Below are positions 227 to 63,346 of a DNA stretch of 64,000 bases, in pieces. Source of the stretch: an uncultured Tolumonas sp. (GTDB lineage: Bacteria; Pseudomonadota; Gammaproteobacteria; Enterobacterales; Aeromonadaceae); the NCBI RefSeq assembly GCF_963556105.2, contig NZ_OY829944.1:429001-493000 (forward strand), read 5' to 3'. Position 1 is the first letter of the stretch. Every line of letters begins with the position of its first letter. A program made the translations under genes and the position numbers. A model generated the notes under the pieces. The model worked only from the letters and a program-made list of their open reading frames with translations. It made no database searches and had not been told where the DNA came from.

Positions 227-628
227 CGCGACGAGAGTCGTACAGGTAGCTAGCCTGACTGGGTTACATTTAACTGCAACTCATTAAATCTTAAAGGTTT
301 TTTGAGTTGCATTCCAGTGAACTATAGCAATTACTTTACCCGACATTCGGGCCTGCATAGACAGCCCGAATGTTCGGTCACCTTCTTTAAGGTGCTCACT
401 TTGGGATATGTTGCGTTTTTGTAGGCTTCTATCCTCCGCTTTAAAAGCGTAGATACTTAATGCTGAAATTTCCAATTTTCCGGGAATGACGTAGTAGGGA
501 TTGTCGTGTTCAGTAAAACAGCTATCTAGCCGCTTGCCGGTGTGAAGCTGTGTTCAATGATTGTCTGAATTTACTGGTTTATTAGTAGATAGCAGACCTG
601 TTATGCAACTAACAGTAGCCTAGGGATA
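227..628. other. Gene-free stretch between groEL and the group II intron
   Basis: No supported gene. Two inverted repeats are visible. The first is a 9 bp stem (275-283 with 303-311) around a 19-nt loop. The second is a 10 bp perfect stem (343-352 with 364-373) that extends to about 13 bp with one bulge. Neither is followed by a clear T run. The last seven bases (622-628) match the exon-binding site of the downstream intron. A short antisense reading frame at 284-475 has no recognisable content. Confidence 0.6.
622..628 (+). other. Group II intron IBS1 (5' exon target)
   Basis: AGGGATA directly abuts the intron's first base and pairs without mismatch with TATCCCT at 849-855 (EBS1). This is a direct sequence observation; the assignment follows the known rule for group II intron exon recognition. 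Confidence 0.75.
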
Positions 629-1301
629 GTGCGTCGCTGGTAACGGCGGGGTGCGGAGCTTCCTGACAATGTACTCCCCGCAAGGGTGTGTTTTTACCGT
701 GAGGTAGGAATGCAGATTTCACCAGTAGCAGGTGGATGAGAGGCTAGGCTGGGTCATACGGTTAACATACGTGAACTGCTAACAAGCACCGTCAGCCGCA
801 ATGAGTGCAAGCTACTGACGCACTTTGACCAAAAGGTACAAGGCTGGTTATCCCTCTTACATCTGGGGATACGTTGTCATTAAGCCTTCGGTGTATTGGC
901 AGAACCTAAGTGACTCGTGTCATTGGCACGGAACTCGGTAAACCCGTATTTTCGCCTGATAGGTTGGTTACCATGGTAACCAACAGGCGTTATTTCAGGC
1001 AGGTAACCCGCGAGGGGAGCTGTTGGAGGTGCGGGCAGAGGAAGTTGGAAAAAGCGAAGGCCGTTGTGTAATGCAGCGGATAGGGGGTTAAAGGTTCCTC
1101 TACCGGAAACGGGGCCCACTTCCAACCGGTCTTTAATCGCAAGAAGGCGTGTAAAGCCAACACAGTGACAAATTGAAAGTGGAGTAAACAGAAAATCAGT
1201 CTGTTTACTCCGACCCTTGCGGGAGCTGGTACTCCCGCAAGGGGGATACCGTGCTTTCTGCTCGGGGCTTTCTAACCAAAAGCACTGAGGAGAATAGCAA
1301 G

Positions 1302-2963
1302 ATGAGTAAGGCTAAACCAATAGTTTTACCTGCATTCTCCGACAAGGCGGAACACTGGGCTGATATTAATTGGCGACAGGTTCACCGCCACGTTCGGGGG
1401 CTACAGGTTCGTATTGCGAAGGCGACAAAGGTACAGGACTGGCGCAGGGTGAAAGCCCTGCAACGGTTACTGACCCGCTCGTTTGCGGCTAAGGCATTAG
1501 CGGTCAGACGGGTGACGGAAAATCGCGGTAAAAATACAGCAGGTGTTGATAAGGCGTTGTGGAATACGCCCAAAGCCAAACTGGAAGCTATCAGTAAACT
1601 GACGCGCACAGGCTATCAGCCGAAGCCGTTACGCAGGGTTTATATTCCAAAAGCCAACGGCAAACGCCGTCCTCTAGGAATACCCACGATGCACGACCGC
1701 GCGATGCAGGCACTCTACCTGTTAGCGTTAGAACCGGTATCGGAGACCTGTGCTGACCGCAATAGTTATGGTTTTCGCCGGATGCGCTCTACTGCCGATG
1801 CGATTGAGCAATGCTTTGTGAACTTAAGTCGCAAAAACTCGGCAGAATGGGTGCTGGAAGGGGATATTAAAGGGTGTTTTGACAACATCAGTCATGACTG
1901 GTTACTTGCCAATGTTCCATTGGATAAACAAGTGCTCAGAAAATGGCTGAAATCGGGATTCATGGAATCCAACCGGTTGTTTCCGACCGAAGCTGGCACA
2001 CCACAAGGCGGTATTATCTCGCCTGTGCTGGCGAATATGGCATTGGATGGATTGGATGCGGTGTTAGAAGCTCATTTTGGGCAGAAGAACACCAAAGCCA
2101 GTTATAAAACCAAGGTCAATTATGTGCGTTATGCAGATGACTTCATCATCACTGGTATCTCGAAAGAGTTACTGGAGGAGAAGGTCAAACCACTGGTGGA
2201 GGCTTTTATGGCAACACGTGGGCTGCAACTGTCGCCAGAAAAAACGGTGATAACGCATATTTCGGAAGGGTTCGATTTTCTGGGGCAAAACGTGCGTAAG
2301 TATCACGGTAAGATGTTAATCAAACCGAGCAAAAAGAACTTACGCGCTCACCTCCAGAAAATACGGGGCATAGTCAAAGGGAACCTGATGGCACGACAAG
2401 ATGTGCTGATACATCAACTCAATCCGGTTATTCGAGGTTGGGCGAACTATCATCGTCATGTTGTAGCTAAAGAAACTTACAGCTATGTGGATTACAGGGT
2501 CTGGAAATTACTCTGGCGCTGGTGCTGTCGCAGGCACAAAAACCGCTATAAACGCTGGGTGAAGGATAAATACTTTCATACAGTGGGCAGTGAGCGTTGG
2601 GTATTTCAGGGTATTGATGCTAAAGGTCAGTTAGTTCGATTACGACACAGCAAAGATGTCCCGATAAAGCGGCATATCAAGATAAGGGCGGAGGCGAACC
2701 CGTTCGATCCAAGCGATGAGTTGTACTTTGAACAGCGCCACATTAGGCATTGGAAAGAGAACATACTTGGAGTGCGGAAATTGCGAACAATTTGGGAACG
2801 TCAAAACTATCGATGTGCGGTCTGCGGTCAGCTATTCGATGACGATGATGAAAGAGATATTCATCATATTGTCAGGAGAGTAGATGGTGGTGGAGACGAA
2901 ATCGAGAACTTGGTAATGTTGCACCTTAATTGTCACCGGCTTTTACACCGTGGTGAGCTGTGA
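1302..2963 (+). CDS. Group II intron reverse transcriptase/maturase with HNH endonuclease
   Basis: A multifunctional intron-encoded protein (553 aa) that helps the intron RNA fold and mediates target-primed retrohoming. In order it shows an N-terminal RT-0/RT region ([17 protein letters not shown], then [16 protein letters not shown]), the RT active-site motif VRYADDF, and a domain X maturase segment ([14 protein letters not shown]). A C-terminal HNH endonuclease follows, with two CxxC-like pairs (CAVCGQLF) and the HHIV...[14 protein letters not shown] core. The start at 1302 is preferred over a GTG at 1251 because TGAGGAG lies just upstream. All catalytic motifs are present and no frameshift is seen, so the protein looks active. 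Confidence 0.95.
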
Positions 2964-3003
2964 TGTCGCTGGTCTGTGTGCAAGCACGGACTTATAAAGG
3001 CTT

Positions 3004-3037
3004 GAGCCGTATGCGGGGAAACTTGCACGTACGGTTC
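3004..3037 (+). ncRNA. Group II intron domain V catalytic hairpin
   Basis: 34 nt with the conserved 5' arm GAGCCGTATG, a GGGGAAAC apical region and the 3' arm CACGTACGGTTC. The two-nucleotide bulge region and the catalytic AGC-type triad position fit domain V. Its intactness suggests that the intron could still splice. Confidence 0.93.
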
Positions 3038-3105
3038 TTAGGGAAGGGGTAACCAGTAATGGTTGCTTCTTACCCGACAATCGCCTGATGGCATATAACC
3101 ACTTG

Positions 3106-15148: not shown

Positions 15149-15225
15149 AGGGGCGTAGTTCCAATTGGTAGAACAGCGGTCTCCAAAACCGATGGTTGGG
15201 GGTTCGAATCCCTCCGCCCCTGCCA
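15149..15225 (+). tRNA. trpT: tRNA-Trp (CCA), copy 1
   Basis: 77 nt with CCA encoded. The acceptor arms AGGGGCG/CGCCCCT pair fully. The anticodon loop CTCCAAA gives anticodon CCA (Trp), and the T loop GGTTCGAATCC is standard. Its sequence is identical to the copy at 31912. It has its own promoter and terminator. Confidence 0.98.
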
Positions 15226-31911: not shown

Positions 31912-31988
31912 AGGGGCGTAGTTCCAATTGGTAGAACAGCGGTCTCCAAAACCGATGGTTGGGGGTTCGAATCCCTCCGCCCCTGCCA
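31912..31988 (+). tRNA. trpT: tRNA-Trp (CCA), copy 2
   Basis: 77 nt, identical over its whole length to the copy at 15149, with CCA encoded and anticodon CCA. It sits between tuf and secE, and no terminator is seen before secE, so it probably shares the secE-nusG transcript and is cut out by tRNA processing. Confidence 0.98.
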
Positions 31989-53068: not shown

Positions 53069-53522
53069 AGAGTTACATCCTGTACTGCTGACGGTGTGGC
53101 GAGAGCTATCATTCAACAGCCATCCTTTTCCTTCAATGGTCTGTTAATCTTATAAGATATAAATAAGTAATTAATATGATCTTTACAGTGAAATTTGAGT
53201 ATAAAGCGATTTTTTTGATAAAAAAACATAATAAATATATTAGTTTTAACGTATTAACTTGTTTATAACCAGTGGTTTACGTTGGTTATTTCCCATTTAC
53301 AAATTACATTACATTTGCCCTTAAATGGTGTTTCATTTTGGCGCGCAATAACAATAATTAGGCAAGCTAATTAATAAAAATCGCATTATTAATCTCAAAT
53401 GAGTATTTTTATGCCATTTTTGCGCTAATTTACTCTTGGCTTATGAATTGCATTAGTTTGGTTAGATAACGCACTTGATGTTTATGGCGTGCAAACGCTG
53501 GCTTCTGTGCCACAATTTGTAA
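53069..53522. other. AT-rich intergenic region before the guanidine locus
   Basis: About 450 bp between the divergent chemoreceptor gene and the guanidine-I riboswitch. No gene is supported. It must hold both promoters, but no match good enough to call was found on either strand. Confidence 0.5.
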
Positions 53523-53620
53523 TGGATGACTAGGGTTCCGGCTTACTGAGTAAGTGTCTGGTCCGAGAGTTGTCGACCTTCCCTGAAGGTTACACGGCGG
53601 GACAAAAACCCGGGAGACAG
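53523..53620 (+). promoter_or_regulatory. Guanidine-I (ykkC) riboswitch
   Basis: The conserved class I blocks are present in order: CTAGGGTTCCG (53530-53540), CTGGTCCGAGAG (53558-53569) and ACGGCGGGACAAAAACCCGGGAGA (within 53594-53617), with a variable hairpin between the second and third. Class I aptamers bind guanidinium and switch genes on. No terminator is seen between aptamer and gene, so control is probably translational. It lies 56 bases before the ABC transporter gene. Confidence 0.95.
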
Positions 53621-53675
53621 CGGCGCACAGCCATGATCTCTTGTGTTTTAACCACGTGCTCCCAGGGAGGGAACC

Positions 53676-54752
53676 ATGAAAAAATCCACTTTTAGCTCCT
53701 CATTCCGTAAATGGCTGTGTGTTGGCCTGTTACCGGTCTTTTTGTTTGGCTCTGTGCCAGCATTTGCAAAAGAGAAATTCAAAGTAGCCTGGACGATTTA
53801 TGCCGGTTGGATGCCTTGGGATTATGCAGCGCAAAGCGGCATTATCAAAAAATGGGCAGACAAGTACGGTATTGATATTGATGTCGTGCAGGTGAACGAC
53901 TACGTCGAGTCGATCAATCAGTATACCGCCGGTGGTTTTGATGGCTGTGTAATGACCAACATGGATGCGTTGACTATTCCGGCAGCCGGTGGCGTAGATT
54001 CTACTGCGATGATCATTGGTGATTATTCCAATGGTAATGATGGTGTGGTGCTGAAAGGCAAATCCGAGCTGAAAGATATCAAAGGCCAGCCCGTTAATCT
54101 GGTGGAGCTGAGTGTGTCACATTATCTGCTGGCGCGTGCGCTGGAAACGCAGGGCATGAACGAGAAAGACATCAAGATCGTTAACACTTCTGATGCCGAT
54201 ATCGTGTCTGCGTATGCGACTAAAGATGTCACCGCCACCGTGACTTGGAACCCGATGTTGTCAGAGGTTGTTAAACAACCGGGCAGCCACTTGGTGTTTG
54301 ATTCCAGCAAGATCCCCGGTGAAATTCTCGATTTGATGGTAGTCAAAACCGACAAGCTGAAAGCGCATCCGGAATTGGGTAAAGCGCTGGCCGGTGCTTG
54401 GTATGAAGTGATGTACACCATGTCTGGCAATGATGCTAAAGCTAAACAAGCACGTACGGCGATGGCGAAAGCATCGGGCACCGATCTGGCGGGTTACGAT
54501 GCGCAGTTGAAGGCCACCAAAATGTTTTATAACCCGGTTGATGCCTTATCACAGGCGCAGGACCCTCACCTGAAACTGACCATGCAGTTAGTATCGGAAT
54601 TTTCATTGCAGCACGGTTTGCTGGGTGAAAATGCACCGAGCGCTGACTTTATCGGCATCGAAACTCCAGCAGGTATTTACGGCGACAAAAACAATGTGAA
54701 GCTGCGGTTTGACCCAACTTATATGCAAATGGCTGCCGACGGTAAGCTGTGA
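53676..54752 (+). CDS. ABC transporter substrate-binding protein, probable guanidine uptake
   Basis: 358 aa of the NitT/TauT (nitrate/sulfonate/taurine) type. A Sec signal peptide ends near residue 31 (VPAFA), followed by FKVAWTIYAGWMPWDYA and a two-lobed binding fold. GGGAGG precedes the ATG. Such proteins next to urea-carboxylase-type operons were once called urea transporters; the upstream guanidine-I riboswitch and the enzymes downstream make guanidine the more likely ligand. First gene of the transporter set, 24 bases before the permease. Confidence 0.88.
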   Translation: MKKSTFSSSFRKWLCVGLLPVFLFGSVPAFAKEKFKVAWTIYAGWMPWDYAAQSGIIKKWADKYGIDIDVVQVNDYVESINQYTAGGFDGCVMTNMDALTIPAAGGVDSTAMIIGDYSNGNDGVVLKGKSELKDIKGQPVNLVELSVSHYLLARALETQGMNEKDIKIVNTSDADIVSAYATKDVTATVTWNPMLSEVVKQPGSHLVFDSSKIPGEILDLMVVKTDKLKAHPELGKALAGAWYEVMYTMSGNDAKAKQARTAMAKASGTDLAGYDAQLKATKMFYNPVDALSQAQDPHLKLTMQLVSEFSLQHGLLGENAPSADFIGIETPAGIYGDKNNVKLRFDPTYMQMAADGKL

Positions 54753-54776
54753 TCTGCGTTGTAAAGGAGATTGGCA

Positions 54777-55607
54777 ATGGCCCGACTCATTAATCGACAA
54801 CCGGATCGTTTAGGTCGCTGGTTACTGGCACTGTTGCCATTCGTGGTGTTGCTGGTGCTGTATCTGATCAATTCAGAAGCACGTCTGGCTGCAAATCCGA
54901 ATGACAAACTGTTGCCGTCATTCCCGGTGATCTTGGATTCGATTGCGCGCATGGCATTCGAGCCAAGCCGTCGCAGCGGAGAATATCTACTGTGGGCGGA
55001 TACACTTTCCAGCTTGAAGCTCTTGTTGATGGGGGTGGGGATCAGTGCCTTGTTGGGCTTGCTGGTTGGTCTGCTGAATGGCGGTATTCCGCTGTTCCGC
55101 ACACCGGTTTCGCCATTGGTGACAGCGTTGTCGCTGGTGCCACCGATGGCGATCCTGCCGATTTTGTTCATCGTGTTTGGCTTAGGCGATTTGGCGAAAG
55201 TGATGCTGATTGTGATTGGGATCTGCCCGATCCTGATTCGTGATTTACAGCTAAAAACCCTGAGCTTGCCGGAAGAACAGCTGATCAAAGCACAGACCTT
55301 GGGGGCTTCGACCTCGCAGATCTTATTGCGCATGATGCTGCCACAAGTGCTCCCGCGCCTGATCGAAGCCATTCGTCTGACGCTCGGCAGTGCTTGGTTG
55401 TTCTTGATTGCGGCAGAAGCGATCGCGGCAACCGAAGGCTTGGGTTACCGGATCTTCCTCGTGCGTCGTTATCTCGATATGTCGATCATCCTGCCGTATG
55501 TGGTTTGGATCACCTTACTGGCGTTTGCAATGGACTGGATTTTAAAAGTGATCTCGCGGAAAGCCTTTCCGTGGTACTTCGGTCGGAACGGGGAGGCGCA
55601 AGGATGA
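54777..55607 (+). CDS. ABC transporter permease, probable guanidine uptake
   Basis: 276 aa with about six membrane spans and the coupling-loop motif of binding-protein-dependent permeases (KAQTLGASTSQILLRMMLPQVLPRLIEAIRLTLGSAW, EAA box). The ATG at 54777 follows AAGGAGA. The stop overlaps the ATPase start by four bases (ATGA). Confidence 0.92.
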   Translation: MARLINRQPDRLGRWLLALLPFVVLLVLYLINSEARLAANPNDKLLPSFPVILDSIARMAFEPSRRSGEYLLWADTLSSLKLLLMGVGISALLGLLVGLLNGGIPLFRTPVSPLVTALSLVPPMAILPILFIVFGLGDLAKVMLIVIGICPILIRDLQLKTLSLPEEQLIKAQTLGASTSQILLRMMLPQVLPRLIEAIRLTLGSAWLFLIAAEAIAATEGLGYRIFLVRRYLDMSIILPYVVWITLLAFAMDWILKVISRKAFPWYFGRNGEAQG

Positions 55608-56392
55608 ATACCTCAATGCCCATCCTGCAGGCGAAAAATGTCTGGAAAGAATACGGCGATGTCTGTGTGCTGGAACGCATCAACGTCTCTATCAATGCGG
55701 GTGAGTTTGTCACTGTGGTCGGGGCATCCGGCTGTGGCAAAAGCACTTTCTTGAAACTGGTGCTGGGTACGGAAAGCGTGTCGCGTGGCGAGTTGTTGTT
55801 GGATGGTCAGCCGATCCCGCAGGAACCGGATGAACATCGCGGCATCGTGTTCCAGAAATATTCGGTGTTTCCACATCTGACGGTGCTCGGCAACGTCATG
55901 TTGGCAGATGAGTTTGCTCAATCGCCCTTCCTCGGCAAGTTGTTTGGTGCTGCCAAAAAAGCAGCGCAGGAACGCGCAGAAGCCATGTTGGAACGGGTGG
56001 GGTTAAGCCATGCGCTGAACCGTTATCCGAGTGAATTGTCGGGTGGCATGCAGCAACGTCTGGCGATTGCGCAGGCACTGATGAAAAAGCCACGTATTTT
56101 GCTGCTTGATGAACCGTTTGGTGCGCTAGATCCGGGGATCCGTGGTGACATGCACCAACTCATTCGCGAGCTGTGGTTACAGCAACAACTGACCATTTTT
56201 ATGGTGACGCACGACCTGAAAGAGGGCTTTGCGTTGGGCAGCCGACTCTGGGTGTTTGATAAGACCCGTCATGATCCGCAGTCGCCACAACGCTATGGCG
56301 CGCAAATTACTTATGACATTCCTTTACAGGGTGGAAAGCTGAACGCTGAACATGCGGCGCTGCTTCCACCACCAGAAAAAACGGAGCAATAA
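55604..56392 (+). CDS. ABC transporter ATP-binding protein, probable guanidine uptake
   Basis: 262 aa with Walker A GASGCGKST, Q-loop FQKYSVFPHL, signature LSGGMQQR, Walker B ILLLDEPFGALD and H-loop VTHD, all intact. It powers the permease before it. It overlaps that gene by four bases and ends one base before cgdA. Confidence 0.95.
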   Translation: MNTSMPILQAKNVWKEYGDVCVLERINVSINAGEFVTVVGASGCGKSTFLKLVLGTESVSRGELLLDGQPIPQEPDEHRGIVFQKYSVFPHLTVLGNVMLADEFAQSPFLGKLFGAAKKAAQERAEAMLERVGLSHALNRYPSELSGGMQQRLAIAQALMKKPRILLLDEPFGALDPGIRGDMHQLIRELWLQQQLTIFMVTHDLKEGFALGSRLWVFDKTRHDPQSPQRYGAQITYDIPLQGGKLNAEHAALLPPPEKTEQ

Positions 56393-56393
56393 C

Positions 56394-57116
56394 ATGGCCG
56401 AATTACTGTATGAAGATTCGCTGCCGGGTGGCAGCCACTGGTCGCTGGTGATGCCTGCGGGCTCACTGCTGAAAATTACCGATGTGGAAGGTGGAGCCAA
56501 CGTCGGCATGCTGTTCTACAACCCACGTAACCTGCTGGAGCGTTACAACGCGCCCGATACCTTGAAGTGCCAGCACACATTCAAACTGACGACGGGTCAT
56601 TGTCTGTATTCCGATATGGGTCGTATTTTCTGCTCGATCGTGCAGGACGATACCGGTTGGATCGACTCCGTTGCTGGGACCACCAACAAAGCAAAAGTAG
56701 CGGCGCGTTGGGGCGAACGTGATTACCAGCATCAACGCAATCTGTGGAAACAAAACGGTTATGACAGCTTCTTGGTGGAAGTGGCGAAATATGGCTTAGG
56801 TGCTCGCGATCTGGCGGCGAACCTGAACCTGTTTAGCAAAGTGTTCACCGATGAAGAAGGCAACATGAAGTTTGCGGAAGGTCATTCGAAAGCAGGTGAC
56901 ACCATCATGCTGCGTTTTGAAATGGAAACGCTGGTGGTGTTTAACACTTGTCCTCATCCGATGGATCCAGCCACTGAATATCCTCGCAAACCCATTCAGT
57001 ACGCACTGTATAAAGCCGATCCGGTTGCGGAAGATGATGTCTGCCGGATTTCTCGCCCTGAAAATGGTCGTGGGTTTGAAAATACCCGTCGTTATGTTTG
57101 CTGCGCTGGTCACTAA
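56394..57116 (+). CDS. cgdA: Carboxyguanidine deiminase subunit A (DUF1989)
   Basis: 240 aa, DUF1989 family, formerly urea carboxylase-associated protein 2. The region GLGARDLAANLNLFSKVF followed by cysteine-containing VVFNTCPHPMDP is typical and may bind metal. In bacteria studied for guanidine use, CgdA and CgdB together remove an imino group from carboxyguanidine to give allophanate. One base separates it from the ATPase gene. Confidence 0.88.
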   Translation: MAELLYEDSLPGGSHWSLVMPAGSLLKITDVEGGANVGMLFYNPRNLLERYNAPDTLKCQHTFKLTTGHCLYSDMGRIFCSIVQDDTGWIDSVAGTTNKAKVAARWGERDYQHQRNLWKQNGYDSFLVEVAKYGLGARDLAANLNLFSKVFTDEEGNMKFAEGHSKAGDTIMLRFEMETLVVFNTCPHPMDPATEYPRKPIQYALYKADPVAEDDVCRISRPENGRGFENTRRYVCCAGH

Positions 57117-57128
57117 GGAGCTTTGGTT

Positions 57129-57767
57129 ATGATGAAGGAAAGTTTACTGAACCCTACCGATGTGGCGTATCGCGAAACCGTGATGGCAGGTGATTACTGG
57201 ATGAAAGTGGTCAAAGCGGGGCAGACCATTCGTATTGTCGATCTGGAAGGCAACCAAGCGGCAGACACGTTGTTTTATTCCGCGGCAAACCCAGCCGAGC
57301 GGTATAGCGCGGTTGATACCATCCGTGAGCAAGGTAATGTTTATCTGTCTGCGGGCACCATGTTGATGACCAACGAATGCAACCCGATGCTGGAAATCGT
57401 CGCGGATACCTGTGGTCGTCATGACACCTTAGGTGGCGCGTGTGCGACGGAAAGTAACCAGGTGCGTTATGACCTTGGCAAAAAACACATGCATGCTTGT
57501 CGTGACAGCTGGTTACTGGCGGTGACAGAAAACCCAGAGTTTGGCATGAGCAAACGCGATATCACGCACAACATCAACTTCTTCATGAACGTGCCAATTA
57601 CCGCAGAAGGTGGTTTGACGTTTGCCGATGGCATCAGTGCGCCGGGTAAATATGTCGAACTGAAAGCGCAGATGGATGTCATTGTGCTGATTTCGAACTG
57701 CCCGCAATTGAATAACCCATGTAATGCCTACAACCCAACACCGGTTGAAGTTTTAGTCTGGAATTAA
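57129..57767 (+). CDS. cgdB: Carboxyguanidine deiminase subunit B (DUF1989)
   Basis: 212 aa, the second DUF1989 protein, formerly urea carboxylase-associated protein 1. Visible motifs are [41 protein letters not shown] and [29 protein letters not shown] lies eight bases before the ATG at 57129. Partner of CgdA. The next gene begins after a 177-base gap holding a second riboswitch. Confidence 0.88.
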
Positions 57768-57770
57768 ACT

Positions 57771-57808
57771 ATATATCCCAAAGCAATTGATGATGCAGGA
57801 AGGCGACA
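57771..57808 (+). repeat. ERIC-like half element
   Basis: 38 bases (ATATATCCCAAAG..., then GATGCAGGAAGGCGAC) resemble the end of an ERIC element and of the copy at 6787-6914 read from its other end. The central palindrome and the other end are missing. By eye roughly three quarters of positions agree. Confidence 0.45.
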
Positions 57809-57848
57809 GACAGCAACGGCAACATCAAGTGAGAAGGGAAATTGAGCA

Positions 57849-57894
57849 CAAGGACGACCTTGATCCGCTCCCTGTTTTTCGCGGGACGACCCGC
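57849..57894 (+). promoter_or_regulatory. Guanidine-II (mini-ykkC) riboswitch
   Basis: Two 5 bp hairpins, each closed by an ACGA tetraloop: CAAGG-ACGA-CCTTG (57849-57862) and GCGGG-ACGA-CCCGC (57881-57894), joined by an 18-nt linker. This is the full definition of the mini-ykkC/guanidine-II class, whose loops kiss when guanidinium is bound. It lies 50 bases before the carboxylase gene. Confidence 0.93.
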
Positions 57895-57944
57895 AGTCTG
57901 ACGGAACAAATGCGTCTCCGGCAGCCTTGAACAGAGTTAGACCT

Positions 57945-60900
57945 ATGTTCAATAAAGTATTGATTGCCAACCGCGGCGCGATTGCCTGCCGAATTATCCG
58001 CACCCTGAAAGAAATGGGTGTTGGTTCAGTTGCTGTTTACAGCGAAGCGGATGCGGACAGCCGCCATGTTTTAGATGCGGACGAAGCCTGGTCTCTCGGT
58101 GAAGGGGCTGCCGCACAGACTTATCTCGACCAGAACAAACTGATTACCATTGCCAAACAAACCGGCGCGCAGGCGATCCACCCTGGTTATGGTTTCCTCA
58201 GTGAAAACCCAGATTTTGCCCGTCGTTGTGTTGACGAAGGGCTAGTGTTTTTAGGCCCGACACCGGAACAGATGGTGGCATTTGGTCTGAAACACGAAGC
58301 GCGTGCACTGGCTGAAGCGGCGCATGTGCCACTGCTGCCGGGTACGGGCTTACTGACTTCTTTAGAAGAAGCACTCGAAAAGGCTGAAACCATTGGTTAC
58401 CCGGTCATGCTGAAAAGCACCGCAGGTGGTGGTGGTATCGGCATGCAGCGTTGTTATAGCGCCGAAGAACTGACCGGTGCTTATGCCTCGGTCAAACGTC
58501 TGTCTGAGAACAATTTTAGTAATGGAGGCATGTTCCTCGAGAAGTTCATCGAACGCGCCCGTCATATCGAAGTGCAGCTGTTTGGTGACGGTCAGGGCAA
58601 GGTGATCGCCATTGGCGAACGTGACTGTTCAGCGCAACGCCGTAACCAGAAAGTCATCGAAGAATGCCCTGCACCGAATTTATTGGAAGAAATCCGTCAG
58701 GCATTACAGCAAACCGCAGTGAAACTGGGTCAGCAGGTAAAATATCGCAGTGCGGGCACGGTGGAATATGTCTATGACGATGCCAGCGGTGCCTTCTATT
58801 TCCTCGAAGTGAACACTCGTCTGCAAGTGGAACATGGTGTCACCGAGCAGGTGTATGGTGTGGATCTGGTGCGCTGGATGATTGAATTGGGTGCCGGTGA
58901 TTTAGCGCCATTGGACAGTCTGGCAAAAGGGCTAACCTCCAAAGGGCATGCGATCCAGGTACGTTTGTACGCCGAAGACCCAGCGAAAAACTTCCGCCCA
59001 AGTGCTGGTCTCATCAGTGCGGTGCAGTTCCCGCAACAGGATCGTCAATCGTGCCGTATCGACCATTGGCTGGATGCCGGTCTTGAAGTTCCGCCATTTT
59101 TTGATCCGATGTTGGCAAAACTCATTGCTTGGTCGGGCTCGCGTGAGCAAACCATCTCAACGCTGCTGACCATGCTGCATGACAGCACGGTGTATGGCAT
59201 TGAAACCAATAAAGAATACCTCAGCGCGCTGCTTAACAGTGATGTCGTGCAACAGGGCAAAGTGCTGACTCGCACGCTGAATGAGTTCAGTTATGAACCC
59301 TCCACCATTGATGTGCTTTCTGGCGGGACACAAACCACCATTCAGGATTTCCCCGGCCGTGTGGGTTACTGGGATATCGGGGTGCCACCGTCTGGCCCGA
59401 TGGATAACTGGTCGTTCCGTTTGGGTAACCGTCTGCTGAACAATGATGCAGAGACGGCAGGTCTGGAAATTACGCTGTCGGGTCCAACCCTGAAATTTAA
59501 TACGGTACGTCAGATCGTGCTGACAGGTGCCACCATCGATGCCAAGTTGGATGGTGAAGCATTGCCAATGTGGCAGGTAGTCACTGTGCCTGCTGGTGCA
59601 ACCCTGCAACTCGGTAAAGTCGCAACAGCGGGGGCGCGCAGTTATCTGCTGTTGGCGGGTGGCATTGATTGCCCACATTATCTCGGCAGTCGTTCGACCT
59701 TTACGTTGGGTCAGTTTGGTGGCCATGTGGGGCGTTCGATTCAGGCAGGGGATGTACTGCATCTGCCAGTCGCAGCAACTCCGGTGGCAGAACAATCACT
59801 GCCCGCGGCATTACAGCCAGCGATTACGAATACTTGGGAACTGCGCGTGATTTATGGTCCGCACGGTGCGCCTGATTTCTTTACTGACCACGATATCGAC
59901 ACCTTCTTCGCAACCGATTACGAAGTGCACTACAACTCGAGTCGCACTGGTGTGCGCTTGATTGGGCCAAAACCGGAATGGGCGCGTGCCGATGGTGGCG
60001 AGGCAGGGTTACATCCATCGAACCTGCATGACAATGCTTATGCGATTGGTACGGTCGATTTCACTGGGGACATGCCGGTCATTCTGGGGCCAGATGGTCC
60101 GAGTCTGGGTGGTTTCGTCTGTCCGGCTACCCTCGTCAAAGCCGATCTGTGGAAAATGGGCCAGCTGAAAGCAGGGGACAAAGTTCGCTTCATTCCGATC
60201 TCCATTGCGGATGCCGAAGTGCTGGATCGCGCACAACTGGCGGAGCTGGAAAGCCTGACGGCACAACCCGTGTCTGTCGCCGTTGCACCACCAACCACAC
60301 CGATCCTGAAAACACTGCCAGCGGAAAAGTATGGTGAGAAAGTGGTCTATCGCCCCAGTGGCGATGACTATCTGCTGGTGGAATATGGCACACAGGTGCT
60401 CGATATCCGTCTGCGTTTCCGTGCGCATGCGCTGATGCTGTGGTTGCAGGAAGCTGACATCGACGGCGTGTTGGAACTGACACCGGGTATTCGTTCGCTG
60501 CAAATTCATTACGATAATCTGCAACTGCCGCTGACGCGTTTACTGGAATTGCTGGAACAGGCGGAAAGTGAACTGACCGATATTGAGCAGATCACTGTGC
60601 CTGCGCGAATCGTTCATCTGCCGCTGTCTTGGGATGATGAAGCCACCCGTCTGGCGATCCGTAAATACGACGAACTGGTGCGGAAAGATGCGCCTTGGTG
60701 TCCATCGAACATTGAATTCATCCGTCGTATCAATGGCCTTGATTCGATTGAACAGGTCAAAGAAATTGTCTTTAACGCCAACTATCTGGTCATGGGCTTA
60801 GGCGATGTCTATCTCGGTGCGCCGGTGGCAACGCCGCTCGATCCGCGTCATCGCTTGGTTACCACCAAATACAACCCGGCGCGCACCTGGACGCCAGAAA

Positions 60901-61547
60901 ATGCGGTCGGGATTGGGGGCGCCTATCTGTGTGTTTACGGCATGGAAGGTCCGGGCGGTTATCAGTTTGTGGGTCGAACCTTGCAGATGTGGAACCGCTA
61001 TCGTCAGACAGCAGAATTCAGCCAACCATGGCTGCTGCGCTTCTTCGATCAGATCAAATTTTACGAAGTGGATGCAGATGAGCTACTGCGGATTCGTCGT
61101 GAATTCCCGCGGGGTCGTTACCCAATCCAAATCGAAGAGATCCAATTCTCACTGGCCGATTACAACAAGCTGGTGGATGAACACGCCGACAAAATTCTCG
61201 TAGCGAAAGAGCGTCAGCAAACGGCATTTGAGGCCGAGCGTCAACGCTGGATCGAAAGCGGACAAGCGAACTTCTCTGCCGATAGCGACATGATGATCGA
61301 AACCGGTGAGGAAGAAGCATTACCGGATCATCACAAAGCGGTGGAAAGTCTGGTCTCTGGCAACGTCTGGCAGGTTTTGGTCGAAGCAGGCCAAACCATC
61401 AAAGCCGGTCAGCCGTTGCTCATCATCGAATCGATGAAAATGGAAATTGAAGTGTTGGCCCCGCATGCCGGAGTGGTCATTAATGTATGTCGTGAAGCCG
61501 GCCAACAAGTGCGTGCAGGACAACGCTTACTGGTATTAGGGGAATAA
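57945..61547 (+). CDS. Biotin-dependent guanidine carboxylase (urea carboxylase family)
   Basis: 1200 aa, full length for the family. An N-terminal biotin carboxylase (IANRGAIACRIIRTLKEMG, ATP-grasp loop STAGGGGIG) occupies about residues 1-450. It is followed by the KipA/KipI-like carboxyltransferase domains (GGTQTTIQDFPGRVGYWDIGVPPSGPMD; NPARTWTPENAVGIGGAYLCVYGMEGPGGYQFVG) and a C-terminal biotin carrier domain with the biotinylated lysine near 1165 (IIESMKMEIE). It carboxylates guanidine (or urea) with ATP and bicarbonate. Two guanidine riboswitches and cgdAB nearby favour guanidine. BirA at 28261 should attach the biotin. Confidence 0.93.
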   Translation: MFNKVLIANRGAIACRIIRTLKEMGVGSVAVYSEADADSRHVLDADEAWSLGEGAAAQTYLDQNKLITIAKQTGAQAIHPGYGFLSENPDFARRCVDEGLVFLGPTPEQMVAFGLKHEARALAEAAHVPLLPGTGLLTSLEEALEKAETIGYPVMLKSTAGGGGIGMQRCYSAEELTGAYASVKRLSENNFSNGGMFLEKFIERARHIEVQLFGDGQGKVIAIGERDCSAQRRNQKVIEECPAPNLLEEIRQALQQTAVKLGQQVKYRSAGTVEYVYDDASGAFYFLEVNTRLQVEHGVTEQVYGVDLVRWMIELGAGDLAPLDSLAKGLTSKGHAIQVRLYAEDPAKNFRPSAGLISAVQFPQQDRQSCRIDHWLDAGLEVPPFFDPMLAKLIAWSGSREQTISTLLTMLHDSTVYGIETNKEYLSALLNSDVVQQGKVLTRTLNEFSYEPSTIDVLSGGTQTTIQDFPGRVGYWDIGVPPSGPMDNWSFRLGNRLLNNDAETAGLEITLSGPTLKFNTVRQIVLTGATIDAKLDGEALPMWQVVTVPAGATLQLGKVATAGARSYLLLAGGIDCPHYLGSRSTFTLGQFGGHVGRSIQAGDVLHLPVAATPVAEQSLPAALQPAITNTWELRVIYGPHGAPDFFTDHDIDTFFATDYEVHYNSSRTGVRLIGPKPEWARADGGEAGLHPSNLHDNAYAIGTVDFTGDMPVILGPDGPSLGGFVCPATLVKADLWKMGQLKAGDKVRFIPISIADAEVLDRAQLAELESLTAQPVSVAVAPPTTPILKTLPAEKYGEKVVYRPSGDDYLLVEYGTQVLDIRLRFRAHALMLWLQEADIDGVLELTPGIRSLQIHYDNLQLPLTRLLELLEQAESELTDIEQITVPARIVHLPLSWDDEATRLAIRKYDELVRKDAPWCPSNIEFIRRINGLDSIEQVKEIVFNANYLVMGLGDVYLGAPVATPLDPRHRLVTTKYNPARTWTPENAVGIGGAYLCVYGMEGPGGYQFVGRTLQMWNRYRQTAEFSQPWLLRFFDQIKFYEVDADELLRIRREFPRGRYPIQIEEIQFSLADYNKLVDEHADKILVAKERQQTAFEAERQRWIESGQANFSADSDMMIETGEEEALPDHHKAVESLVSGNVWQVLVEAGQTIKAGQPLLIIESMKMEIEVLAPHAGVVINVCREAGQQVRAGQRLLVLGE

Positions 61548-61549
61548 TT

Positions 61550-63346
61550 ATGACGCAACCGATCACCATTAGCGCTATCCATGATGCCTATCGTAGTGGG
61601 GTTTTAACTCCGCATAAGTTATTACATCGTTGTCTGCAACATGCTCAAGCTGATGATCATCACGCGTGGATTAGTGTGTTATCGCCAGAACAATTAGATG
61701 ATTATCTGCAAAAACTTGCTGGTCATTCGCCCGATGATTTGCCGTTGTTTGGTATTCCATTTGCCATCAAAGACAACATCGATCTGGTAGATCTACCCAC
61801 TACGGCGGCTTGTCCAGATTACGCATATCAACCATTAGAATCGGCGTTTGTGGTTCAGCAGCTGATCGCGGCGGGGGCGATCCCATTGGGCAAAACTAAC
61901 CTCGATCAGTTTGCGACCGGACTGGTAGGCGTGCGTAGCCCGTATGGTGCCTGTCAGAACAGTTTTGACCCAGATTATATTTCGGGTGGTTCCAGTGCAG
62001 GATCTGCCGTATCGGTTGCAACCGGGCAGGTCTGTTTTTCATTAGGTACCGACACTGCTGGTTCAGGTCGTGTACCAGCTTCCTTTAACAACATTATTGG
62101 TTTGAAGGGAACGAAAGGCCGCATTAGTTGCAGTGGCGTCGTGCCAGCTTGTCAGAGCCTCGATTGCGTGACGATCTTCACCTCCACCGCAGCCGATGCG
62201 AAAGCGGTGTGGCAGGTAGCGGGCGCGTTTGATCCGATTGATCCATTTGCACGCGCAGCGGTTCCGGCGAAAGCAATGCCAGCGGCATTCACCTTCGGGG
62301 TGCCAGCACCAGAACAGTTAGCGTTCTTTGGTGATGATGCGGCAGAAGTGTTGTTCTGGCAATCGGTCGAAACACTGAAAGAACTTGGCGGCGAAGCAGT
62401 CACGATCAACCTCGATCCGTTTGTGCAGGCAGCGAAGTTACTTTATGAAGGTCCGTATGTTGCTGAGCGTTTAGCGGCGATCAAAGAGTTTTTCCGTGAC
62501 GATCCGACCCGCTGTTTACCGGTGATTCAGACGATTGTGGGTGGCGCAGAAAAGCGTGCGGCGGTCGAAGCGTATGAAGCACTATATGCTTTGCAGCGCT
62601 ACAAACGAGTGACGGATGCGGAACTGGCGAAAGTCGATTTCATCGTGACACCAACGGCTGGCACGATTTATCCGATCGCCGATGTGGAAGCCGATCCAAT
62701 TCAGCTCAACAGCAATCTTGGTTTTTACACCAACTTTATGAACTTGTTGGACTACTGCGCGATTGCGATCCCATCAGGTTTTCGCGTGACTGGTTCGAAA
62801 CGGGGTTTACCGTTCGGTGTCACCTTGTTTGCAGCAGCTTTCCAAGATGATGCGTTACTGGCGATTGCCGATCAATGGCAGCGCAAACTGGCATTGCCAC
62901 TCGGTGCAACGGGTCAGGAATTTCCCGCGAATACACCCGTCGTAGCGCAGCCAACCAACGGCATGATCGATGTGTTGGTGTGTGGCGCACATCTCTCTGG
63001 CTTGCCTTTGAACTGGCAGCTCAAAGATCGCCAAGCCTTCCTGAAGCAAGTGACGGCAACCGCGAAAGCCTATCGTATGTATGCGCTGGCAGGAGGGCTG
63101 CCATATCGTCCGGGGTTGATCCGCGATCCTGACAATGGTGCAGCGATTGCGGTGGAAGTTTGGTCGGTACCAACTGAGCATTTTGGCTCTTTTGTCGCAG
63201 GCATTCCCGCACCACTGGGGATCGGTAAAGTCGAACTGGCGGATGGATCGTGGGTCAGCGGCTTTATCTGTGAACCTTGTGGCATCGCTGGGGCGGAGGA
63301 GATCACCGCTCTGGGTGGTTGGCGAAATTATCTTGCAAGTAAATAA
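61550..63346 (+). CDS. atzF: Allophanate hydrolase
   Basis: 598 aa. The amidase-signature domain has the catalytic triad visible: Lys74 (FAIKDNID), the cis-serine in SGGSSAGSA (about 148) and the nucleophile Ser172 (GTDTAGSGRVPASF). A C-terminal domain of about 130 residues typical of allophanate hydrolases follows (VLVCGAHLSGLPLNWQL). It converts allophanate to ammonia and CO2, the last step of the guanidine route. Two bases after the carboxylase and followed by a terminator. Confidence 0.94.
   Translation: MTQPITISAIHDAYRSGVLTPHKLLHRCLQHAQADDHHAWISVLSPEQLDDYLQKLAGHSPDDLPLFGIPFAIKDNIDLVDLPTTAACPDYAYQPLESAFVVQQLIAAGAIPLGKTNLDQFATGLVGVRSPYGACQNSFDPDYISGGSSAGSAVSVATGQVCFSLGTDTAGSGRVPASFNNIIGLKGTKGRISCSGVVPACQSLDCVTIFTSTAADAKAVWQVAGAFDPIDPFARAAVPAKAMPAAFTFGVPAPEQLAFFGDDAAEVLFWQSVETLKELGGEAVTINLDPFVQAAKLLYEGPYVAERLAAIKEFFRDDPTRCLPVIQTIVGGAEKRAAVEAYEALYALQRYKRVTDAELAKVDFIVTPTAGTIYPIADVEADPIQLNSNLGFYTNFMNLLDYCAIAIPSGFRVTGSKRGLPFGVTLFAAAFQDDALLAIADQWQRKLALPLGATGQEFPANTPVVAQPTNGMIDVLVCGAHLSGLPLNWQLKDRQAFLKQVTATAKAYRMYALAGGLPYRPGLIRDPDNGAAIAVEVWSVPTEHFGSFVAGIPAPLGIGKVELADGSWVSGFICEPCGIAGAEEITALGGWRNYLASK

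Follow-up and report, generated by a model that had tools for sequence, protein, structure and literature searches.

Two guanidine riboswitch classes behind a predicted sigma-54-type promoter in a putative guanidine-assimilation operon of an uncultured Tolumonas

Why does one string of bacterial genes carry two different classes of guanidine riboswitch, and what starts its transcription? We addressed this question in a 64,000-nucleotide (nt) stretch of the genome of an uncultured Tolumonas sp. (assembly GCF_963556105.2, contig NZ_OY829944.1, positions 429,001 to 493,000 of the forward strand; hereafter the window), in which a first-pass annotation had placed a guanidine-I (Gd-I) aptamer ahead of transporter and carboxyguanidine deiminase (cgdA, cgdB) genes, and a guanidine-II (Gd-II) aptamer further along the same genes. 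Our analysis points strongly to a guanidine nitrogen-assimilation operon under stacked control by a promoter, Gd-I and Gd-II. The dual-riboswitch operon is already known and common, and the window is a further example of it; the new part, which may be worth following, is a widespread predicted sigma-54-type promoter before Gd-I.

Results

Rfam covariance models matched both aptamers on the plus strand, each above its gathering cut-off and over the full length of the model (Table 1), bearing out the annotation's claim of two classes in one gene string and placing its aptamer coordinates within 2–4 bases of the Rfam boundaries. The Gd-II match, which has two ACGA-loop hairpins, reached an E-value of 2.4e-4 in the 64-kb search and 3.6e-6 in the whole-genome search, and each class is matched once in the whole 4.0-Mb genome; binding of guanidine by both riboswitches is predicted for this genome. 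The order on one strand is Gd-I, the genes of an adenosine triphosphate (ATP)-binding cassette (ABC) importer, cgdA, cgdB, Gd-II, the carboxylase gene and the allophanate hydrolase gene, with Gd-I, as the annotation had it, ahead of the importer/cgdAB half and Gd-II in the gap between cgdB and the carboxylase gene, directly before the carboxylase and the hydrolase. The annotated gene string was right as far as it went; its interval, ending at 61547, leaves out the allophanate hydrolase, which is part of the same string. A carboxylase (1200 residues), CgdA, CgdB, an allophanate hydrolase and an ABC importer, all on one strand, are the complement of a guanidine carboxylase operon. The database family names (urea carboxylase, urea ABC transporter) would instead suit an operon for urea, which is scarcely credible for a gene string holding two guanidine aptamers, and such carboxylases have been published to prefer guanidine, with CgdAB acting on carboxyguanidine (PMC12186494). 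A preference of this carboxylase for guanidine over urea is predicted, which limits the guanidine assignment.

In front of Gd-I lies a candidate sigma-54-type promoter, TGGC-N7-TTGCA, from which the predicted transcription start of the operon falls near 53463. Seen by eye and then by alignment, the motif stands before Gd-I in all nine aligned loci, the DNA further upstream diverging among them. Sites were scored against a fixed consensus of 12 scored positions with a GG-N10-GC core; the strict pattern was uninformative in the window alone, and we therefore scanned all 47 Gd-I sites of a first set (all 38 class-search and all 10 own-family matches, one of them shared). A phylum set comprised 27 further sites (the best 30 of 58 matches, minus three already in the first set). 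With a score of at least 10/12, the first set has the motif at 43 of 47 sites within 250 nt, at 42 of 47 within 150 nt and at 32 of the 37 outside the window's own family, and the phylum set has it at 25 of 27 within 150 nt; the 150-nt span and the 10/12 threshold were chosen after the first 47 sites had been seen. Dinucleotide shuffles gave means of 1.34 (first set) and 0.70 (phylum set), the largest count being 5 in each, and at the same threshold the controls gave 0/29 upstream of Gd-II, 0/74 inside the first gene, 3/73 further upstream and 1/74 on the opposite strand. Altogether 67 of 74 Gd-I sites carry the motif, and all 67 copies are located 20–99 nt before the aptamer. Matching 11 of the 12 positions and holding this fixed place before Gd-I, the site at 53437–53452 is predicted to be a sigma-54-type promoter for the operon, the evidence being the conservation of the motif before Gd-I and not the window match itself. 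Both rpoN and ntrC are encoded in the genome, with scores of 534.9 and 769.3 bits against cut-offs of 277.35 and 558.6, respectively.

NtrC-like sites, scored with a 12-position consensus, are enriched 90–320 nt upstream of Gd-I at the 73 of 74 sites that could be scanned (G075 was omitted, having too little upstream DNA). Sites scoring at least 10/12 occur at 33/73 (shuffle mean 2.17, largest 5; in-gene control 5/74), and those scoring at least 9/12 at 62/73 (shuffle mean 18.95, largest 30; in-gene control 16/74). Because a predicted sigma-54-type promoter precedes Gd-I and NtrC-like sites are enriched upstream of it, expression of the operon probably requires nitrogen limitation in addition to guanidine. 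Four points count against this account of the promoter: the strict sigma-54 pattern matches once in the 64 kb vs. 1.22 times expected by chance; no motif lies within 150 nt at seven of the 74 Gd-I sites (G376, G439, G397, G287 with a motif at -162, the second G193 site, L099 and L108); the Gd-I sites are related by descent, and the counts therefore overstate their independence; and the window's own NtrC-like site at 53316–53332, with only 9/12, is no more than suggestive.

We take COG3665 to be the CgdA/B family. Published work gives independent support: a list of sigma-54-regulated genes in proteobacteria includes 102 from COG3665, of which 59% bear the name urea carboxylase (PMC12316311), and an NtrC regulon table for Burkholderia cenocepacia includes urea carboxylase (-6.0), together with its ABC binding protein and aminomethyltransferase-like partner, both marked na(m) (PMC5491218). 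The likeness to the window lies in NtrC/sigma-54 control of carboxylase-type genes, which for the window is predicted, and the tie to Gd-I is made in the present analysis, not by these papers: guanidine is absent from the main texts of both, and riboswitch appears in one only, within a reference title. None among the matches listed in our literature search, which had few subscription papers within reach, ties guanidine riboswitches to sigma-54 or NtrC.

The annotation had regarded the combination in one locus as unusual, a view that finds no support, as the arrangement is already in print (PMC12186494; PMC12508155) and a collinear same-strand pair, Gd-I preceding Gd-II by 3.4–5.2 kb, is present in 11 of 369 class-sampled genomes, the window included (the Gd-II of G268, among these pairs, scores below the cut-off). 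Across this class sample Gd-II was found in 27 genomes, Gd-I in 29 and both in 15. Within the window's own family, Gd-II is present in 34 of 75 genomes and Gd-I in 10, all 10 of which also have Gd-II; these are 9 of the 11 genomes of its genus plus one other family member (G030), and the two own-genus genomes without the pair are 70% and 87% complete. The seven-gene order and the Gd-II position are identical in all eight own-family relatives compared with the window (G072, split over two contigs, was left out). In nine of ten distant pairs compared, Gd-II fell in the gap that follows cgdB and precedes the carboxylase gene; eight of these nine had a substrate-binding match and seven a hydrolase within the stretch examined. 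The tenth, G193, is arranged otherwise: its locus L053 has three same-strand aptamers over ~7 kb in the order Gd-I, Gd-II, Gd-I, the first followed by transporter genes and the last by cgdA/cgdB. A survey of named loci around cgdB, covering the best 80 out of 594, placed a Gd-II over the cut-off ≤310 nt after cgdB in 36 loci and elsewhere in five (660 nt after cgdB in one, upstream in four), with no Gd-II over the cut-off in the other 39; examples came from Alcanivorax, Marinobacterium, Marinomonas, Shewanella, Psychromonas, Methylophaga and Vibrio breoganii. Divergent Gd-I pairs were also seen, back to back and ~280–450 bp apart, in L070 (G384), L072 (G129) and L075 (G110), one aptamer before a transporter gene and the other before a ureohydrolase-like gene (guanidinase-like by eye).

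Among published systems, the collinear Gd-I/Gd-II arrangement printed for three enterobacteria resembles the window in having Gd-I with importer and deaminase genes and Gd-II with carboxylase and allophanate hydrolase genes immediately downstream, the likeness being one of arrangement (PMC12186494). The operon of Vreelandella boliviensis likewise begins with Gd-I and carries Gd-II in the gap between cgdB and carboxylase, with an importer, cgdA/B, carboxylase and allophanate hydrolase, but places mgdH and mgdL between carboxylase and hydrolase (PMC12508155), whereas two bases separate the carboxylase stop from the hydrolase start in the window.

Folding suggests that Gd-I in the window switches translation, as a predicted ON switch. 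The first gene has a strong Shine-Dalgarno, AGGGAGGG, which is invariant in the nine-locus alignment and complementary to P2 of the aptamer in the window, and the minimum-energy fold pairs it with the 5' strand and loop of P2, CCUUCCCU, in nine of ten leaders (four leaders draw the final two pairs of this masking helix from another stretch). In nine leaders the mean unpaired probability of the Shine-Dalgarno was 0.00–0.13 when folded freely vs. 0.30–0.61 with the aptamer helices forced. The model has to be set against the G030 leader, which departs from it (0.32 free, 0.27 with the aptamer forced), against the weak response of the G074 leader (0.06 to 0.30), and against a built-in effect, since the masking strand is necessarily lost once the aptamer is forced; the folds therefore mark the model as possible and energetically near, not as demonstrated. 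Gd-I might instead act by transcription termination, the usual mode of the class (PMC12186494, figure legend) and the one presumed by the V. boliviensis authors (PMC12508155). We consider this rather unlikely here, as no terminator-like site was found in 53619–53675, between Gd-I and the first gene, where the usual, if not obligatory, intrinsic-terminator platform would lie, and the strong, invariant Shine-Dalgarno with its complement in P2 also argues for translation; Rho-dependent termination, for its part, would leave no hairpin.

A consensus fold also contains 20 pairs between the 5' leader and the stretch after the aptamer, enclosing the aptamer. None of them is changed on both sides, and two, plus one further pair, have mismatches in some rows; with no two-sided changes, the long-range helix around Gd-I is therefore unproven. 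Positions 53619–53643, complementary to the 5' leader, are nearly invariant in nine loci of two genera, beyond what the Shine-Dalgarno needs. By eye, the 3' end of the aptamer had at first seemed to mask the ribosome site; the folds gave the P2 pairing instead.

For Gd-II, the linker between the hairpins has been proposed to mask the Shine-Dalgarno in E. coli (PMC9300104). The linker as an anti-Shine-Dalgarno gains no support here, its pairing with the initiation region being no stronger than that of shuffled linkers in nine loci (z-scores -0.75 to 0.93), and forcing P1 and P2 of Gd-II in the folds left access to the ribosome site unchanged; the modelling thus yielded no Gd-II switch, a point against the Gd-II part of the account. 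Linker pairing in eight of nine other-family loci (G093 was unmatched) gave z-scores of -1.94 to 1.60, from which nothing was concluded, the automatically picked starts being partly wrong. A predicted hairpin holding the carboxylase start codon has z-scores of -2.0 to -4.0 in eight of nine loci and -0.2 in G030. The annotation had also raised an internal promoter at 57768–57848, which would give a second transcript starting before Gd-II, and a ~60-nt extra stretch that the window has between cgdB and Gd-II speaks for it. This is very unlikely: in scans that covered sigma-70 and sigma-54 promoter types, 53100–58100 showed no plus-strand sigma-70-type site, and no sigma-54-type site stood upstream of Gd-II at any of 29 loci (L003–L031); the extra stretch, ~60 nt of 57768–57845, is present in only three of the nine aligned loci (G000, G066 and G069, not the other six); and a terminator-like match at the end of cgdB (57731–57747) is weak and within chance (6 found vs. 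4.9 expected).

Table 1. Coordinates of the control elements and genes of the operon (window positions)
Feature	Position	Strand	Basis
NtrC-like upstream site, weak alone	53316..53332	+	9/12 of consensus positions
Sigma-54-type promoter (predicted), TGGC-N7-TTGCA	53437..53452	+	11/12 scored positions; conservation before Gd-I
5' leader before aptamer; part complementary to stretch after aptamer	53463..53518	+	Consensus fold, alignment
Gd-I riboswitch aptamer	53519..53618	+	RF00442, 88.4 bits (gathering cut-off 63), E 1.7e-14, model positions 1-107/107
P2 5' strand and loop of Gd-I, predicted ribosome-site mask without ligand	53577..53584	+	Folding
Shine-Dalgarno of first gene	53664..53671	+	Sequence; nine-locus alignment; folding
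ABC transporter substrate-binding protein (guanidine/urea-carboxylase type)	53676..54752	+	TIGR03427, 560.7 bits, cut-off 333.9
ABC transporter permease	54777..55607	+	General ABC permease models, all below cut-off among matches listed
ABC transporter ATPase	55604..56392	+	General ABC ATPase models, below cut-off among matches listed
cgdA, carboxyguanidine deiminase subunit	56394..57116	+	TIGR03425, 323.4 bits, cut-off 205.95; PF09347
cgdB, carboxyguanidine deiminase subunit	57129..57767	+	TIGR03424, 337.8 bits, cut-off 284.7; PF09347
Gd-II riboswitch aptamer, two hairpins	57846..57894	+	RF01068, 39.3 bits (gathering cut-off 32), model positions 1-48/48
Predicted hairpin holding carboxylase start codon	57927..57952	+	Folding, similar hairpin in 8/9 loci
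Biotin-dependent guanidine (annotated urea) carboxylase	57945..61547	+	TIGR02712, 1858.5 bits, cut-off 1303.85; domain matches
Allophanate hydrolase	61550..63346	+	TIGR02713, 790.3 bits, cut-off 511.05

Elsewhere in the window, parts of a group II intron are matched on the plus strand at 597–743 (RF02012, 110.3 bits) and 3002–3078 (RF00029, 68.6 bits), consistent with a single intron over ~597–3078. Two transfer RNA genes, at 15149–15222 and 31912–31985, have the same aligned sequence, score 59.2 bits each and lie ~16.8 kb apart.

Discussion

We propose that a sigma-54 promoter, probably driven by NtrC, would start the transcript under nitrogen limitation only, and that this transcript would open with the guanidine-I riboswitch. 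As long as guanidine is absent, the first gene's ribosome site would be caught in a pairing with the 5' strand of P2; guanidine binding would let P2 form and so free the site, the predicted translational ON response, and the five genes that follow would then yield the importer and the carboxyguanidine deiminase. A further check on guanidine would come from Gd-II, probably at the level of translation, for the carboxylase and the allophanate hydrolase, the ATP-spending pair that would finish the pathway.

On balance we favour extending this beyond the window: Gd-I riboswitches in Pseudomonadota would nearly always lie immediately downstream of sigma-54/NtrC promoters, making guanidine use a multi-input gate in which nitrogen shortage triggers transcription, Gd-I opens the way to uptake and deimination, and the more permissive Gd-II does so for the ATP-costly carboxylase. 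Gd-I in this genus would conceal the ribosome site by means of its P2 strand. In-line probing of the V. boliviensis aptamers gave an apparent dissociation constant (KD) of 44 µM guanidine for Gd-I, with no methylguanidine binding up to 1 mM, and apparent KDs of 93 µM guanidine and 83 µM methylguanidine for Gd-II (PMC12508155). The annotation had suggested that the two classes might differ in affinity; these guanidine KDs differ about twofold, and the acceptance of methylguanidine by Gd-II is the clearer difference between the classes; the same authors call the combined riboswitch control interesting for further study (PMC12508155). If the promoter result is confirmed, the operon would offer a compact test case in which NtrC-dependent transcription and RNA-level sensing are joined, and the guanidine riboswitch would in these bacteria serve feeding under nitrogen shortage, not detoxification.

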